A stretch of 64,000 bases of DNA from an uncultured Flavobacteriaceae bacterium (GTDB lineage: Bacteria; Bacteroidota; Bacteroidia; Flavobacteriales; Flavobacteriaceae): NCBI GenBank assembly GCA_947501625.1, contig CANMWN010000004.1, positions 62,001 through 126,000 of the forward strand, given 5' to 3'. Under the pieces are notes generated by a model. That model did no database searches, had not been told where the DNA came from, and saw only the letters and a program-made list of their open reading frames with translations. This document shows, piece after piece, positions 11,709 to 64,000 of this stretch. The translations under genes were made by a program, and so were the position numbers. Each line of letters opens with the position of its first letter. Position 1 is the first letter of the stretch.

Positions 11709-12556
11709 AACTAAAAGATTTAAAACATAATTTTATTACAAGACTCTCATCAACTTATTCAATTGAAGAAATTGAAAGTATGTTTTTTCTATTGTTAGAA
11801 CATACTTACAATCTTAAACGTATAGAATTTATTTTAAATTCTGACATAGAAATAACTAAAGAGAATCAAGTTTATTTTAAACAAGTTATTGAAAAACTAA
11901 GTAAAGAAATTCCTTTACAATATATCATCGGCAAAACTGAATTTTACGGATTATCATTTATTGTAAATTCCAACGTGCTAATTCCAAGACAAGAAACCGA
12001 AGAGTTAGTTCATTGGATTATTAATGAGGCTTCGAAAATCAAGAAAAAAGAAATTACAATTTTAGATATTGGCACTGGAAGTGGCTGCATAGCAATTTCT
12101 CTTGCAAAAAATATAAAAAATGCCAAAGTATTTGCAATTGACATTTCAGAAGATGCCTTAAAAATTGCAAAAACCAATGCTCAACTTAATAATGTTTCGG
12201 TTAATTTTATAACTGAAAATATTTTAACTCTTAAATCATTGAGTGGCAAATTCGATATCATTGTAAGCAACCCTCCATATGTAAGAGAACTTGAGAAAAG
12301 TGAGATTCAAAAAAATGTTTTGGAAAACGAACCTCATCTTGCGCTTTTTGTAAAAGATCGCAATCCTTTATTATTTTATGATTCCATAGCAATGCTAGCA
12401 AAAAATCATTTAGTTGAAAATGGATTCCTTTATTTTGAAATAAATCAATATCTTGGTCGCGAAACTTGTGAATTACTTACATCTAAAGGCTTTAATACTA
12501 TAGAACTTCGCAAGGATCTTAATAATAATGACCGTATGATTAAAGCATTTATATAA
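11705..12556 (+). CDS. prmC: Peptide chain release factor glutamine N5-methyltransferase PrmC (HemK)
   Basis: Methylates the GGQ glutamine of release factors. 283 residues: helical N-terminal domain (1-95), SAM motif DIGTGSG (121-127) and the diagnostic NPPY motif (189-192). Length matches PrmC. Coupled to the upstream acetyltransferase and followed ten bases later by a glycosyltransferase gene. Confidence 0.95.
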   Translation: MKLKDLKHNFITRLSSTYSIEEIESMFFLLLEHTYNLKRIEFILNSDIEITKENQVYFKQVIEKLSKEIPLQYIIGKTEFYGLSFIVNSNVLIPRQETEELVHWIINEASKIKKKEITILDIGTGSGCIAISLAKNIKNAKVFAIDISEDALKIAKTNAQLNNVSVNFITENILTLKSLSGKFDIIVSNPPYVRELEKSEIQKNVLENEPHLALFVKDRNPLLFYDSIAMLAKNHLVENGFLYFEINQYLGRETCELLTSKGFNTIELRKDLNNNDRMIKAFI

Positions 12557-60425: not shown

Positions 60426-61151
60426 ATGATAAAATTTTTTAGAAAAATTAGACAAAATTTACTTTCGGAAGGCAAAACTGGAAAGTATCTAAAGTATGCA
60501 ATTGGAGAAATAGTTTTGGTGATTATTGGTATTCTAATAGCATTATCAATAAACAACTGGAATACAAACAGAAAACTAAAATCTGAAGAACAAAACCTTC
60601 TTAAAGACCTTCGAGCTGAAGTAAAATCAAATATTGAATCGCTTATGATTACTATTGATGAACATGAAAAGTCATATAATGCTGCACAAGAATTCAAAAG
60701 TTTATTTCAAGACAGAGAAGCATTTGATAAAATGGCAGATTCTATATTTGAAAGAATGTTCATTAGAATGAACATGAATTTTACTTATGACCCAAATAAA
60801 GGAATATTAAACTCAATGATTTCTTCTGGTCAAATCAATAATCTTTCAAATAAAGAACTTAAGTATTTATTAGCATCTCTTGAAGATGTAATAACGGACA
60901 CTTTTGAAGACACAATGAAAATAGAAAGATGGAGAGATGACTTATTAACCAAAACATTCTATGATTCTCATATTATTATTGACGGAAAAATAGAACGATT
61001 TGAATTCAAACGTCGCTATGATAATCCAGATTTCAGATTTCTTGTTATTCTTTTTGACGAAGTACGAAAAAGTGGATTAACAGAAGAATATGAATTAAAA
61101 AATACTATGGAGCATATTCTTGAGTTAATTGAAATGGAAATAAAAGAATAA
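60426..61151 (+). CDS. DUF6090 family membrane-anchored protein
   Basis: 241 residues: a basic start (MIKFFRKIRQNLLSEGKTGK), one membrane helix (about 25-43, IGEIVLVIIGILIALSINNW), then a long helical domain rich in charged residues. The start and helix are characteristic of the flavobacterial DUF6090 group (from memory), often encoded in multiple copies. Function unknown. Convergent with rluD, 22 bases apart. Confidence 0.8.
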   Translation: MIKFFRKIRQNLLSEGKTGKYLKYAIGEIVLVIIGILIALSINNWNTNRKLKSEEQNLLKDLRAEVKSNIESLMITIDEHEKSYNAAQEFKSLFQDREAFDKMADSIFERMFIRMNMNFTYDPNKGILNSMISSGQINNLSNKELKYLLASLEDVITDTFEDTMKIERWRDDLLTKTFYDSHIIIDGKIERFEFKRRYDNPDFRFLVILFDEVRKSGLTEEYELKNTMEHILELIEMEIKE

Positions 61152-62205: not shown

Positions 62206-62763
62206 TTAACGACCTCTACCGTCTCCCAACTTCATATCTATAACTGAATTCTTTGGCAATTTATCTCCAACTTTGATTGGTTTACCATTATGATACAAAC
62301 CTCTAACGATATCTTTCGCTAAATCTGGAACATATTTATGGTTCTTACCAATTCTAAAACCTACAGCTTTTAAAACAGTTTCTGCGTTTCTTCTAGATTT
62401 TGTTAAAACATTTGGCAATTTAATATCTTGATAAGTTGCTCTGTTTAATTTTAAATATATCTTTCTGTTTTCTTTTACAAAATCACCTGCTTCAGGATCT
62501 TGCTCTATTACAGAAAGCGGAGGATATGTAGGATTGTAATTAGTTGAGTCTAAGATTTTCATATCCAAATCAAGTTCCTCCAATTTAACTTTAACTTCCT
62601 CAATAGTTAATTTTGACAAATCTGGAACTTGGATTTTTTGACTATGATTAGTAGTAATTCTTAACCATTGCATTAATAAAAAAAGGAAAATTAAAATCCC
62701 AATAATAGCAAATCCTACTTGCTTCAAAAAAGTTTTACTTTTTATAAAATTTAATAAACTCAT
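62206..62763 (-). CDS. PASTA-domain membrane protein
   Basis: 185 residues from ATG 62763; an upstream in-frame TTG at 62784 overlaps the -7 box and is rejected. One membrane helix (about 15-37), then two PASTA repeats (about 45-110 and 115-183: VPDLSKLTIEEVKVKLEEL; LPNVLTKSRRNAETVL). PASTA domains bind peptidoglycan fragments or beta-lactams, but here no kinase or PBP domain is attached. Ends in a basic GDGRGR tail. Cotranscribed with rluD. Confidence 0.88.
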   Translation of the reverse strand: MSLLNFIKSKTFLKQVGFAIIGILIFLFLLMQWLRITTNHSQKIQVPDLSKLTIEEVKVKLEELDLDMKILDSTNYNPTYPPLSVIEQDPEAGDFVKENRKIYLKLNRATYQDIKLPNVLTKSRRNAETVLKAVGFRIGKNHKYVPDLAKDIVRGLYHNGKPIKVGDKLPKNSVIDMKLGDGRGR

Positions 62764-62781
62764 TTTAAGTATTTGTTTTAA

Positions 62782-62789
62782 CAAAGATA
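62782..62789 (-). promoter_or_regulatory. Candidate -7 element of the PASTA/rluD operon
   Basis: TAtcTTTG on the minus strand, 18 bases before the ATG at 62763. No clear -33. Confidence 0.45.
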
Positions 62790-62837: not shown

Positions 62838-63722
62838 TTAAACCGCCGATTTAATATTCAACTTATTTAGATAATCAATATACTCTTCTGGGCTTTTTAC
62901 ATATATAATGTTGGATGATAAATAATTTGTATCATAATTACCAGAAACTAAAAACACAACATCTTTAGTCTCTGTTTTTTCCTTAAACTCTTTATAATAT
63001 TGTTCTTTCTTTGGGGCAGTGAATACAGAAAAAACCAATTTAGTTCCAGTTAAATCTATCATTTTATCAATATTATCTAAAGGAACATTTTGACCTAAAT
63101 AATAAACTTTCCAACCTAAATTTTTCGCAATAAAATACCCTAACAACAAACCTATTTCATGATTTTCATGCTCCGATAAATATAAAATAATCTTAGAGTT
63201 TTCATCTGCTGCAACATTAATATTATCGATTTCAGTAATTATTTTTTGTCTTATAAGATTGGAAATAAAGTGTTCTTGAGATGGAGTTGTTTTATTGGTA
63301 GTCCATAGTATTCCAACCTGATTTAAAAAAGGGTAGACTAAATTAGTCATAGTTGACAATAGTCCATTAGCCAGAACATTCTTTTTAAAGATTTCATTGA
63401 ATTCAGTTTCATCTAATTCAAGCATACATAATATCAATCTATTAATACTATCTTCAAATTTGTCAGAATAATTAGAACCCTTTTCTATAACTAGTTGATG
63501 AAATTCTTCTTCGTCTAACTCATTTATCTTAGAAATTCTGTATCCATTATTTAATAGTATAGAGATATTTAATAATTTTTTCACTTCAATCTCAGAATAA
63601 TATCTAATATTGGTATTTGTTCTTTTTGGATTTAGAAGATTATACCTCCTTTCCCAAACCCTTAAAGTGTGTGACTTAATACCTGTTAAAGACTCAACTT
63701 GTGACATTGTATACATCTCCAT
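62838..63722 (-). CDS. MerR family regulator with B12-binding domain (CarH/LitR-like photoreceptor)
   Basis: 294 residues. MerR helix-turn-helix 1-70 (MYTMSQVESLTGIKSHTLRVWERRY), a four-helix segment about 90-165 and a Rossmann cobalamin domain about 175-290. Two diagnostic features are complete: W-x9-EH (Trp140, Glu150, His151) and E-x-H-x-x-G (His188, the lower cobalt ligand). These define the CarH class, which binds adenosylcobalamin in the dark as a DNA-binding tetramer and releases DNA on illumination. It is divergent from a lipoprotein gene, with both promoters between. Confidence 0.92.
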   Translation of the reverse strand: MEMYTMSQVESLTGIKSHTLRVWERRYNLLNPKRTNTNIRYYSEIEVKKLLNISILLNNGYRISKINELDEEEFHQLVIEKGSNYSDKFEDSINRLILCMLELDETEFNEIFKKNVLANGLLSTMTNLVYPFLNQVGILWTTNKTTPSQEHFISNLIRQKIITEIDNINVAADENSKIILYLSEHENHEIGLLLGYFIAKNLGWKVYYLGQNVPLDNIDKMIDLTGTKLVFSVFTAPKKEQYYKEFKEKTETKDVVFLVSGNYDTNYLSSNIIYVKSPEEYIDYLNKLNIKSAV

Positions 63723-63750
63723 GTCTAATTTTTTTGAATAAATACTTAAA

Positions 63751-63781
63751 CAAAACTATAGTATTTATAACACTAAACAAA
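63751..63781 (-). promoter_or_regulatory. Promoter of the MerR/B12 regulator gene
   Basis: On the minus strand: TTTG (63781-63778), a 19-base spacer and TAgtTTTG (63758-63751). Both elements are perfect. TTAAACA (63746-63752) and CTAAACA (63773-63779) half-sites lie on them. Confidence 0.75.
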
Positions 63782-63807: not shown

Positions 63808-63838
63808 TGTTTAACTTTTTTAATAAAAAACTTGAACA
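63808..63838. promoter_or_regulatory. 31-bp near-palindrome, candidate MerR/B12 operator
   Basis: Left arm (63808-63822) begins TGTTTAAC and right arm (63824-63838) ends CTTGAACA; they are reverse complements except for two pairs and the centre. The right arm carries the -33 TTG of the lipoprotein promoter. A further TTGAACA is at 63884-63890, just before the ATG. Confidence 0.6.
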
Positions 63839-63861
63839 TTTATATTTTTTTTATATATTTG
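63832..63861 (+). promoter_or_regulatory. Promoter of the lipoprotein gene
   Basis: TTG (63832-63834), a 19-base spacer and TAtaTTTG (63854-63861). Leader of about 25 bases to ATG 63892. Confidence 0.7.
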
Positions 63862-63891
63862 TCTAATATTTATAATTTAAAACTTGAACAA

Positions 63892-64000
63892 ATGAAAGCG
63901 ATCAAAAAAACATTAACGGAAAAAATTCCATTACTACTATTTGTGATGGTACTTACAACTTCATTTCTATTTACTAGTTGTGATGATGACGATGATAATA
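63892..64000 (+). CDS. Lipoprotein, N-terminal fragment cut off by window edge
   Basis: Only 36 codons are visible: MKAIKKTLTEKI, a hydrophobic stretch and a lipobox (LFTSC, Cys near residue 30), followed by a run of Asp residues, a surface-export-type tail for Bacteroidota lipoproteins. The functional domain lies outside the window. Divergent from the MerR/B12 gene and probably under its control. Confidence 0.75.
   Translation, partial: MKAIKKTLTEKIPLLLFVMVLTTSFLFTSCDDDDDN

Follow-up and report, generated by a model that had tools for sequence, protein, structure and literature searches.

The window analysed here, a stretch of DNA of 64,000 nucleotides, carries a MerR-family gene whose product is probably a CarH/LitR-type repressor that acts in the dark with adenosylcobalamin (AdoCbl) on photoprotection genes, and that appears to have been acquired in a replacement unit. 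The best reading of the protein is as a regulator of the CarH/LitR kind with an operator geometry unlike the direct repeats of CarH. Its proposed role as a light switch is well supported by context, and we infer for it AdoCbl binding, a response to light and repression. The evidence that was computed comprises cofactor residues, an operator and its placement, synteny and, in a single congener, a native-type regulator that is broken. The features of the locus are given below, in which the -7 and -33 elements are those that we assume from the promoter consensus.

62206-62784, minus strand: PASTA-protein gene (named from its sequence), left border of the putative inserted unit
62838-63722, minus strand: CarH/LitR-like MerR regulator of clade A, 294 aa (from ORF, Pfam, phmmer and residue alignment)
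63722-63752: operator O3, TGTCTAA-N17-TTAAACA, overlapping the regulator start codon and the end of its putative -7 element
63751-63780, minus strand: putative regulator promoter, -7 element TAGTTTTG at 63751-63758, -33 element TTG at 63778-63780, 19-bp spacer
63808-63838: operator O2, TGTTTAA-N17-TTGAACA, whose right half-site holds the TTG of the putative FAS1 -33 element
63832-63861, plus strand: putative FAS1 promoter, -33 element TTG at 63832-63834, -7 element TATATTTG at 63854-63861, 19-bp spacer
63860-63890: operator O1, TGTCTAA-N17-TTGAACA, starting at the end of the -7 element and stopping 1 bp short of the FAS1 start
63892-64000, plus strand: start of the FAS1 (fasciclin) lipoprotein gene, ATG at 63892, 462 aa, continuing outside the window (L007:7893-9281)
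L007:9378-11783: TonB-dependent receptor gene, after FAS1

The open reading frame of the regulator was confirmed with an ATG start, and its product is the single match of its kind in the window's genome at E<=0.001. Pfam models for MerR_1 (PF13411, 1.9e-17) and the four-helix B12-binding_2 domain (PF02607, 6.5e-08) both matched above cut-off, and the best phmmer matches in the PDB were to Thermus CarH (3whp and 5c8d, E about 3e-16, query residues 3-227), with about 24% identity to TtCarH across 80% of the query. In the residue alignment, for which the TtCarH sequence of plasmid pTT27 was the reference, W131, E141, H142, E175, H177 and G180 of TtCarH correspond to W140, E150, H151, E186, H188 and G191 of the regulator, and both W-x9-EH (W140-x9-E150H151), the motif of the upper face, and E-x-H-x-x-G (E186-x-H188-x-x-G191), which contains the lower cobalt ligand, are present. 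The equivalents of W140, E150, H151, E186 and H188 are invariant in the aligned relatives of two clades described below (18 of 18 in clade A and 23 of 23 in clade B), and that of TtCarH G180 is kept in 17 of 18 and 23 of 23, respectively. Since the cofactor residues are invariant in all 41 relatives, their presence reflects homology and not chance.

The initial annotation had placed Trp140, Glu150, His151, Glu186 and His188 correctly, as each aligned with its TtCarH counterpart, and the observation itself is confirmed. Its phrase "full CarH photoreceptor signature" was too strong, because TtCarH His132, the upper ligand of the light state, is Thr141 in this protein, and the Gly of the published GxxH is missing, TtCarH Gly174 being His185; both replacements count against the preferred reading. 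The alignment with Thermus CarH and flavobacterial homologues that had been proposed thus bore out the cofactor residues and failed to recover these two positions, and the interpretation that accompanied the observation is partly supported. His was found at the His132 position in none of the 42 flavobacterial proteins compared, which have Gly, Thr or Ser there in clade A and Gln or Ser in clade B. Three of the four elements of the SignatureFinder signature (GxxW, EH, GxxH, GxxxP) are found in the regulator, as G137-W140, E150H151 and G210-P214, and the GG near the C terminus of TtCarH is Ser260-Gly261. Two model searches also count against the preferred reading: the NCBIfam CarH equivalog model scored 95 bits on the regulator against a cut-off of 400, and the Pfam Rossmann-type B12-binding model PF02310 gave no match in it. 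An AlphaFold2 model, for which P0001 was aligned with the L041 protein alone, had a mean pLDDT of 61, with residues 82-173 below 50, and was set aside as too poor.

Of the 249 genomes of the window's family that were sampled, at least 203 had a homologue of the regulator at E<=1e-10. Among the matches listed, 17 besides the window's own gene scored 240-289 bits (clade A) and the others at most 188 bits (clade B), and a tree separated the two clades with support of 100/99 on both sides; the window's protein belongs to clade A, the rarer one. Gene context was sampled at all 17 listed clade-A loci together with L041, and at 23 B-type loci from the rest. A divergent FAS1 gene was found in 17 of the 18 clade-A loci, and crtI or crtB lay within the stretch in 14 of them; among the other four, the contigs of L044, L057 and L041 are short or come to an end, and no crt gene is present at L058. 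In clade B, the regulator is followed by crtI and crtB on its own strand at 21 of 23 loci. Apart from FAS1 and crt, no recurrent partner gene was seen beside the regulator in the 41 relatives' loci. The link of related genes to carotenoid genes that had been stated from the window holds, as crtI or crtB accompanied the relatives in 35 of 41 loci. The neighbor had been called a lipoprotein gene, which it is, more precisely one for a fasciclin-domain (FAS1) lipoprotein of 462 aa that runs past the window, has three fasciclin stretches and is divergent from the regulator. For this neighbor the expectation that the regulon may differ was apt, but the genome's own crt-photolyase operon bears the same operator; the crt and photolyase genes, which were to be looked for beyond position 64000, lie on another contig and not just past the window.

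The operator was derived from a 15-bp motif built from the 18 clade-A upstream regions without the window's own gene, its seed being chosen after seeing both. The motif is inverted in the clade-A upstream regions, with 35 of 40 plus/minus pairs at a spacing of 21 or 22, and it forms three inverted pairs in the window, all between the regulator and FAS1, compared with an average of 0.01 in Markov copies. The resulting consensus is an inverted repeat of 30 or 31 bp, TGTYYAA-N16/17-TTRRACA. When half-site pairs were counted over gaps of 4-40, the gap was 16 or 17 in 21 of 22 clade-A pairs and in all three of the window's own; the same held for 18 of 19 clade-B pairs, for which the right half, overlapping the start codon, could begin with A or T. 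Strict operators occurred in 14 of 18 clade-A and 4 of 23 clade-B regions, and relaxed ones in 18 of the 23 clade-B regions; Markov shuffles gave means of 0.012 and 0.004 sites. Since the half-sites of the window's genome fit the CarH core (TnnACA in 8 of 8, AnnTnnACA in 6 of 8), the reading head seems to be the same as that of CarH. The starts of the inverted half-sites are 23-24 bp apart. Our literature search, for the most part of papers outside subscription, found no flavobacterial CarH operator or FAS1-crt regulon.

All three putative promoters, namely those of the regulator gene and of FAS1 and a third one that we likewise assigned by consensus, read TTG-N19-TAnnTTTG, and each operator covers the end of a -7 element or a start, a placement that fits repression. 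A search for riboswitches in L007 and L010 (38,902 bases) gave no Rfam match at the gathering threshold.

The strict pattern occurred seven times in the window's genome and its reversed form not once. These sites are O1-O3, one before crtI, one over the start of a bshB1-like gene and two in coding sequence. The crtI site (C2:551781-551811) ends 9 bp upstream of crtI and is identical to O1 in half-sites and gap (TGTCTAA, N17, TTGAACA). It precedes the genome's crtI-crtB-crtZ-crtY-photolyase genes on contig C2, which are unlinked to the regulator, and control of carotenoid synthesis by the regulator is predicted from this shared operator. The site over the bshB1-like start (C2:164431-164461; L099, start at L179:4450) lies on coding sequence, which counts against the preferred reading, and its right half may be conserved coding sequence; the name of the gene and its place in the bacillithiol pathway are our assumption. 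With regard to the cofactor, the genome encodes a PduO-type adenosyltransferase, by which AdoCbl can be made, and B12-binding enzymes, some of them MetH-like and methylmalonyl-CoA mutase-like by their sequence starts. Elsewhere in it, C1:971196-985139 (L004-L006) contains three neighboring ORFs of 458-506 aa with B12-binding domains, which we take to be of the radical-SAM kind.

The operator search was extended to 16 of the 17 clade-A genomes (G066 left out) and gave 65 sites, compared with 23 for the reversed pattern. Sixteen of them were at clade-A regulator loci and 2 near the B-type locus of G212, and the other 47 were examined: 22 lay in ORFs of at least 90 aa, which counts against the preferred reading, and 25 between such ORFs. 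These 25 intergenic sites are away from regulator loci; 16 of them precede putative photoprotection-type genes and 9 have no such neighbor. FAS1 genes follow five of the sites, one of which also faces a RibD_C-photolyase pair; TetR-like genes follow another five, with an ABC1-kinase-like gene next in each case, and one more site directly precedes an ABC1-kinase-like gene. Two sites are found before a glutathione peroxidase gene followed by a TspO-like gene, and one each before crtI (in G135, with a second, clade-B-like regulator just upstream), before a 6-pyruvoyl-tetrahydropterin synthase (PTPS) gene, and before DUF2452-DUF2805-amine oxidase (oxidoreductase) genes. These identities come from Pfam for one example per kind and for all five FAS1 genes, and from BLAST clusters or sequence starts for the rest. 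Light induction is reported for tspO, phrB and two fasciclin genes of Mycobacterium kansasii (PMC9861118), and AstaP, a microalgal FAS1 protein, is described as binding carotenoids (PMC10147662); one idea is that flavobacterial FAS1 proteins might carry carotenoids.

The absence of His132 from all 42 proteins compared would suit a cobalamin-binding regulator of the same genes that senses B12 level, redox state or oxygen, and whose photolysed form stays on DNA without the upper His. According to PMC10442372, TtCarH H132A was mostly tetrameric in light in one study, as this reading would have it, and an earlier study had reported disassembly. However, proteins with Arg, Gln or Tyr at this position are reported to respond to light (PMC11796333), the adenosyl-contacting motif of CarH, W-x9-EH, is invariant, and the genes linked to the operator are photoprotection genes, and we consider a sensor of this sort rather unlikely. 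Because the H132A reports conflict and light-responsive proteins without this His exist, the missing His132 neither proves nor excludes light sensing.

The divergent C-terminal half, in which no Pfam B12-binding match was found and GG has become Ser260-Gly261, could instead point to a B12-independent regulator switched by a partner protein, in the manner of Myxococcus CarA or of class II LitR, which in Pseudomonas is reported to act via a LOV protein (PMC9758184). This is quite improbable, as the cobalt ligand His188 and W-x9-EH are invariant in 41 of 41 relatives and no partner gene recurs beside the regulator except FAS1 and crt. A classical MerR-type activator, rather than a repressor, would find 19-bp spacers in all three putative promoters. 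Such a spacer is within the usual flavobacterial range, and the operators are not confined to it but also cover the -7 element or the start codon. Characterised CarH proteins are described as repressors (PMC4557120), and activation of this kind appears very unlikely.

In the preferred reading of the regulator as a dark repressor of the CarH/LitR type, an AdoCbl-bound oligomer would sit in the dark on the 30/31-bp inverted repeats over promoter elements and start codons, and would repress the regulator gene, FAS1 with the TonB receptor gene, and the unlinked crtIBZY-photolyase operon. In light, the Co-C bond would break and the oligomer would disassemble or change shape, after which the photoprotection genes would be transcribed.

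How the regulator came to lie at this locus can be judged from the genus. In all five genomes examined, congener G113 included, genes of the RluD, PASTA and ddl types follow one another directly, with a PASTA-ddl gap of 70-121 bp; the window's genome has the regulator, FAS1 and TonB receptor, about 5 kb in all, between PASTA and ddl. Among 14 genomes of the genus, 6 have a clade-A gene, only G113 has an intact clade-B gene, and 7 have neither, three of which are at least 92% complete. An extra ORF, the regulator, FAS1 and crt genes lie beside PASTA in G249 and G250, where the unit is followed by ddl and stops at a contig edge, respectively. Regulator-FAS1-TonB adjoins PASTA in G257 and in L041, apparently the same contig as that of G259, and in G258 the regulator adjoins PASTA at a contig edge. 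G113 keeps the native-type (clade-B) regulator beside crt, and G249 retains a clade-B-type regulator split over two frames, with no crt gene beside it. The unit between normally adjacent genes, together with the native regulator in G113 and the broken one in G249, indicates that the native regulator was probably replaced by an incoming one, with whose operator that of the genome's crt operon agrees. We infer from few genomes in which direction and order this took place.

In the CrtI tree, CrtI of the window's genome groups with those of G113 (94/85) and G131 (100/98), the CrtI proteins from the units in G249 and G250 fall with clade A (100/100), and CrtI of L045 and L055 does not follow the clade-A regulators. 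The clade-A regulator of L055 adjoins both crtI and FAS1-TonB, and thus other gene orders than the replacement unit exist. A strict operator was found just before crtI at 8 of 21 clade-B and 0 of 13 clade-A crtI starts; these 8 all have gap 16, and 15 of their 16 half-sites read TGTTTAA. We dropped the idea that the genome's own crtI operator is a leftover start of a deleted native regulator, because the operators that clade-B crtI genes have of their own make inheritance from there simpler. Half-site TGTTCAA was found in 2 of 6 at the window's locus, 1 of 2 before its genome's crtI, one of the 42 clade-A half-sites and none of the 16 at clade-B crtI; strict operators in G250 and G257 contain it as well. 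The intergenic region of the G249 unit contained one relaxed site and no strict operator, which counts against the preferred reading. Near the broken clade-B regulator of G249 (L204, contig C4), two TGTTTAA-type operators were observed at 12010-12039 and 12449-12478, one of them 6 bp before a PTPS-like gene, with a FAS1-like ORF about 1.4 kb away.

On the simplest reading, a regulator-FAS1-crt unit would have entered the genus between the PASTA-protein gene and ddl. In the lineage of the window, where the unit carries no crt genes and the native regulator would have been lost, the crt operon is of the native type, has no adjoining regulator and would read the operator of the newcomer.

Compared with CarH and class I LitR, the regulator has the same MerR and four-helix B12-binding domains, W-x9-EH, E-x-H-x-x-G and half-site core, and carotenoid and photolyase genes as neighbors or predicted targets. 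Unlike them, it has His132 replaced, shows only about 24% identity and has a FAS1 lipoprotein gene as predicted divergent target, and its inverted half-sites at gap 16/17 differ from the CarH operators, reported as tandem 11-bp direct repeats nAnnTnnACAn (PMC8156234), which counts against the preferred reading. For the class II LitR proteins of Pseudomonas (PplR/PmlR), the light-induced targets are reported to include genes for photolyase, cryptochrome, FolE and oxidoreductase (PMC9758184), a set that resembles the operator-linked genes found in clade-A relatives; these proteins have only the four-helix domain and a LOV partner, whereas the window's regulator keeps the cobalt ligand region. 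A MerR gene is the first gene of the crtI-crtB cluster in the Nonlabens myxol cluster, as in clade B; that source (PMC11855829) gives it no more than a name, and the window's protein is of clade A. CtMerR and the photocobilins, cobalamin proteins reported to respond to light (PMC11796333), resemble the regulator in having a residue other than His at the position of His132, but they were identified by GxxW, EH, GxxH and GxxxP, and the regulator lacks the Gly of GxxH. Bizionia MliR, described as a MerR-like protein of 109 residues with no effector domain (PMC9478572), was rejected as a member of the regulator's family.

Chryseobacterium lacus, placed by its authors in Flavobacteriaceae, is reported to have light-induced carotenoids, and its report found no car/lit genes and left the regulator open (PMC7064467). 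The operator, target list and residue set make flavobacterial light sensing for carotenoid control directly testable, and in this genus the probable replacement of a regulator can be read from the genomes. If the light response is true, this would be CarH-type sensing without His132 and with an inverted-repeat operator, in family members that the published signature would miss. A broader proposal, which we advance tentatively and with some doubt, is that two clades of flavobacterial CarH-like photoreceptors might do without the bis-His switch, bind inverted half-sites about two helical turns apart and control a FAS1-led photoprotection regulon, FAS1 proteins being possible outer-membrane carotenoid carriers, and that, because both clades would read nearly the same operator, an incoming regulator-FAS1-crt unit could take the place of the native regulator and capture the resident crt operon, a replacement that might have been caught at several stages in one genus.

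Several further operator candidates were rejected. Relaxed operators (N17, at most one mismatch) numbered 26 in the window's genome versus 19 for the reversed pattern, and were treated as noise; 10 of the 21 one-mismatch sites were examined, of which 7 were in ORFs and 3 intergenic. The only suggestive relaxed site, before the L189 gene, whose start looks heat-shock-like in our estimation, was rejected as one mismatch off. A 21-bp pattern, written from its two exact sites, gave 14 sites with up to 3 mismatches versus 24 in the control, and only the two exact sites were used; a near match at C1:398713 was rejected, as it lies inside a reverse-transcriptase-like ORF. That ORF (L085, about C1:398713) is 564 aa long and has the look of a reverse transcriptase (YADD). 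A strong single half-site at window position 60443 was also rejected, since it lies in the start of a repeated protein gene. Just before crtI on C2 (L010:4987-11690) there are nine tandem genes of about 240-265 aa with the shared start MIKFFR(K/D/H)IR, and one further gene with this start is found in the window at 60426-61151; the coding start of these genes, which presumably form a DUF6090-like family, mimics an operator half-site.
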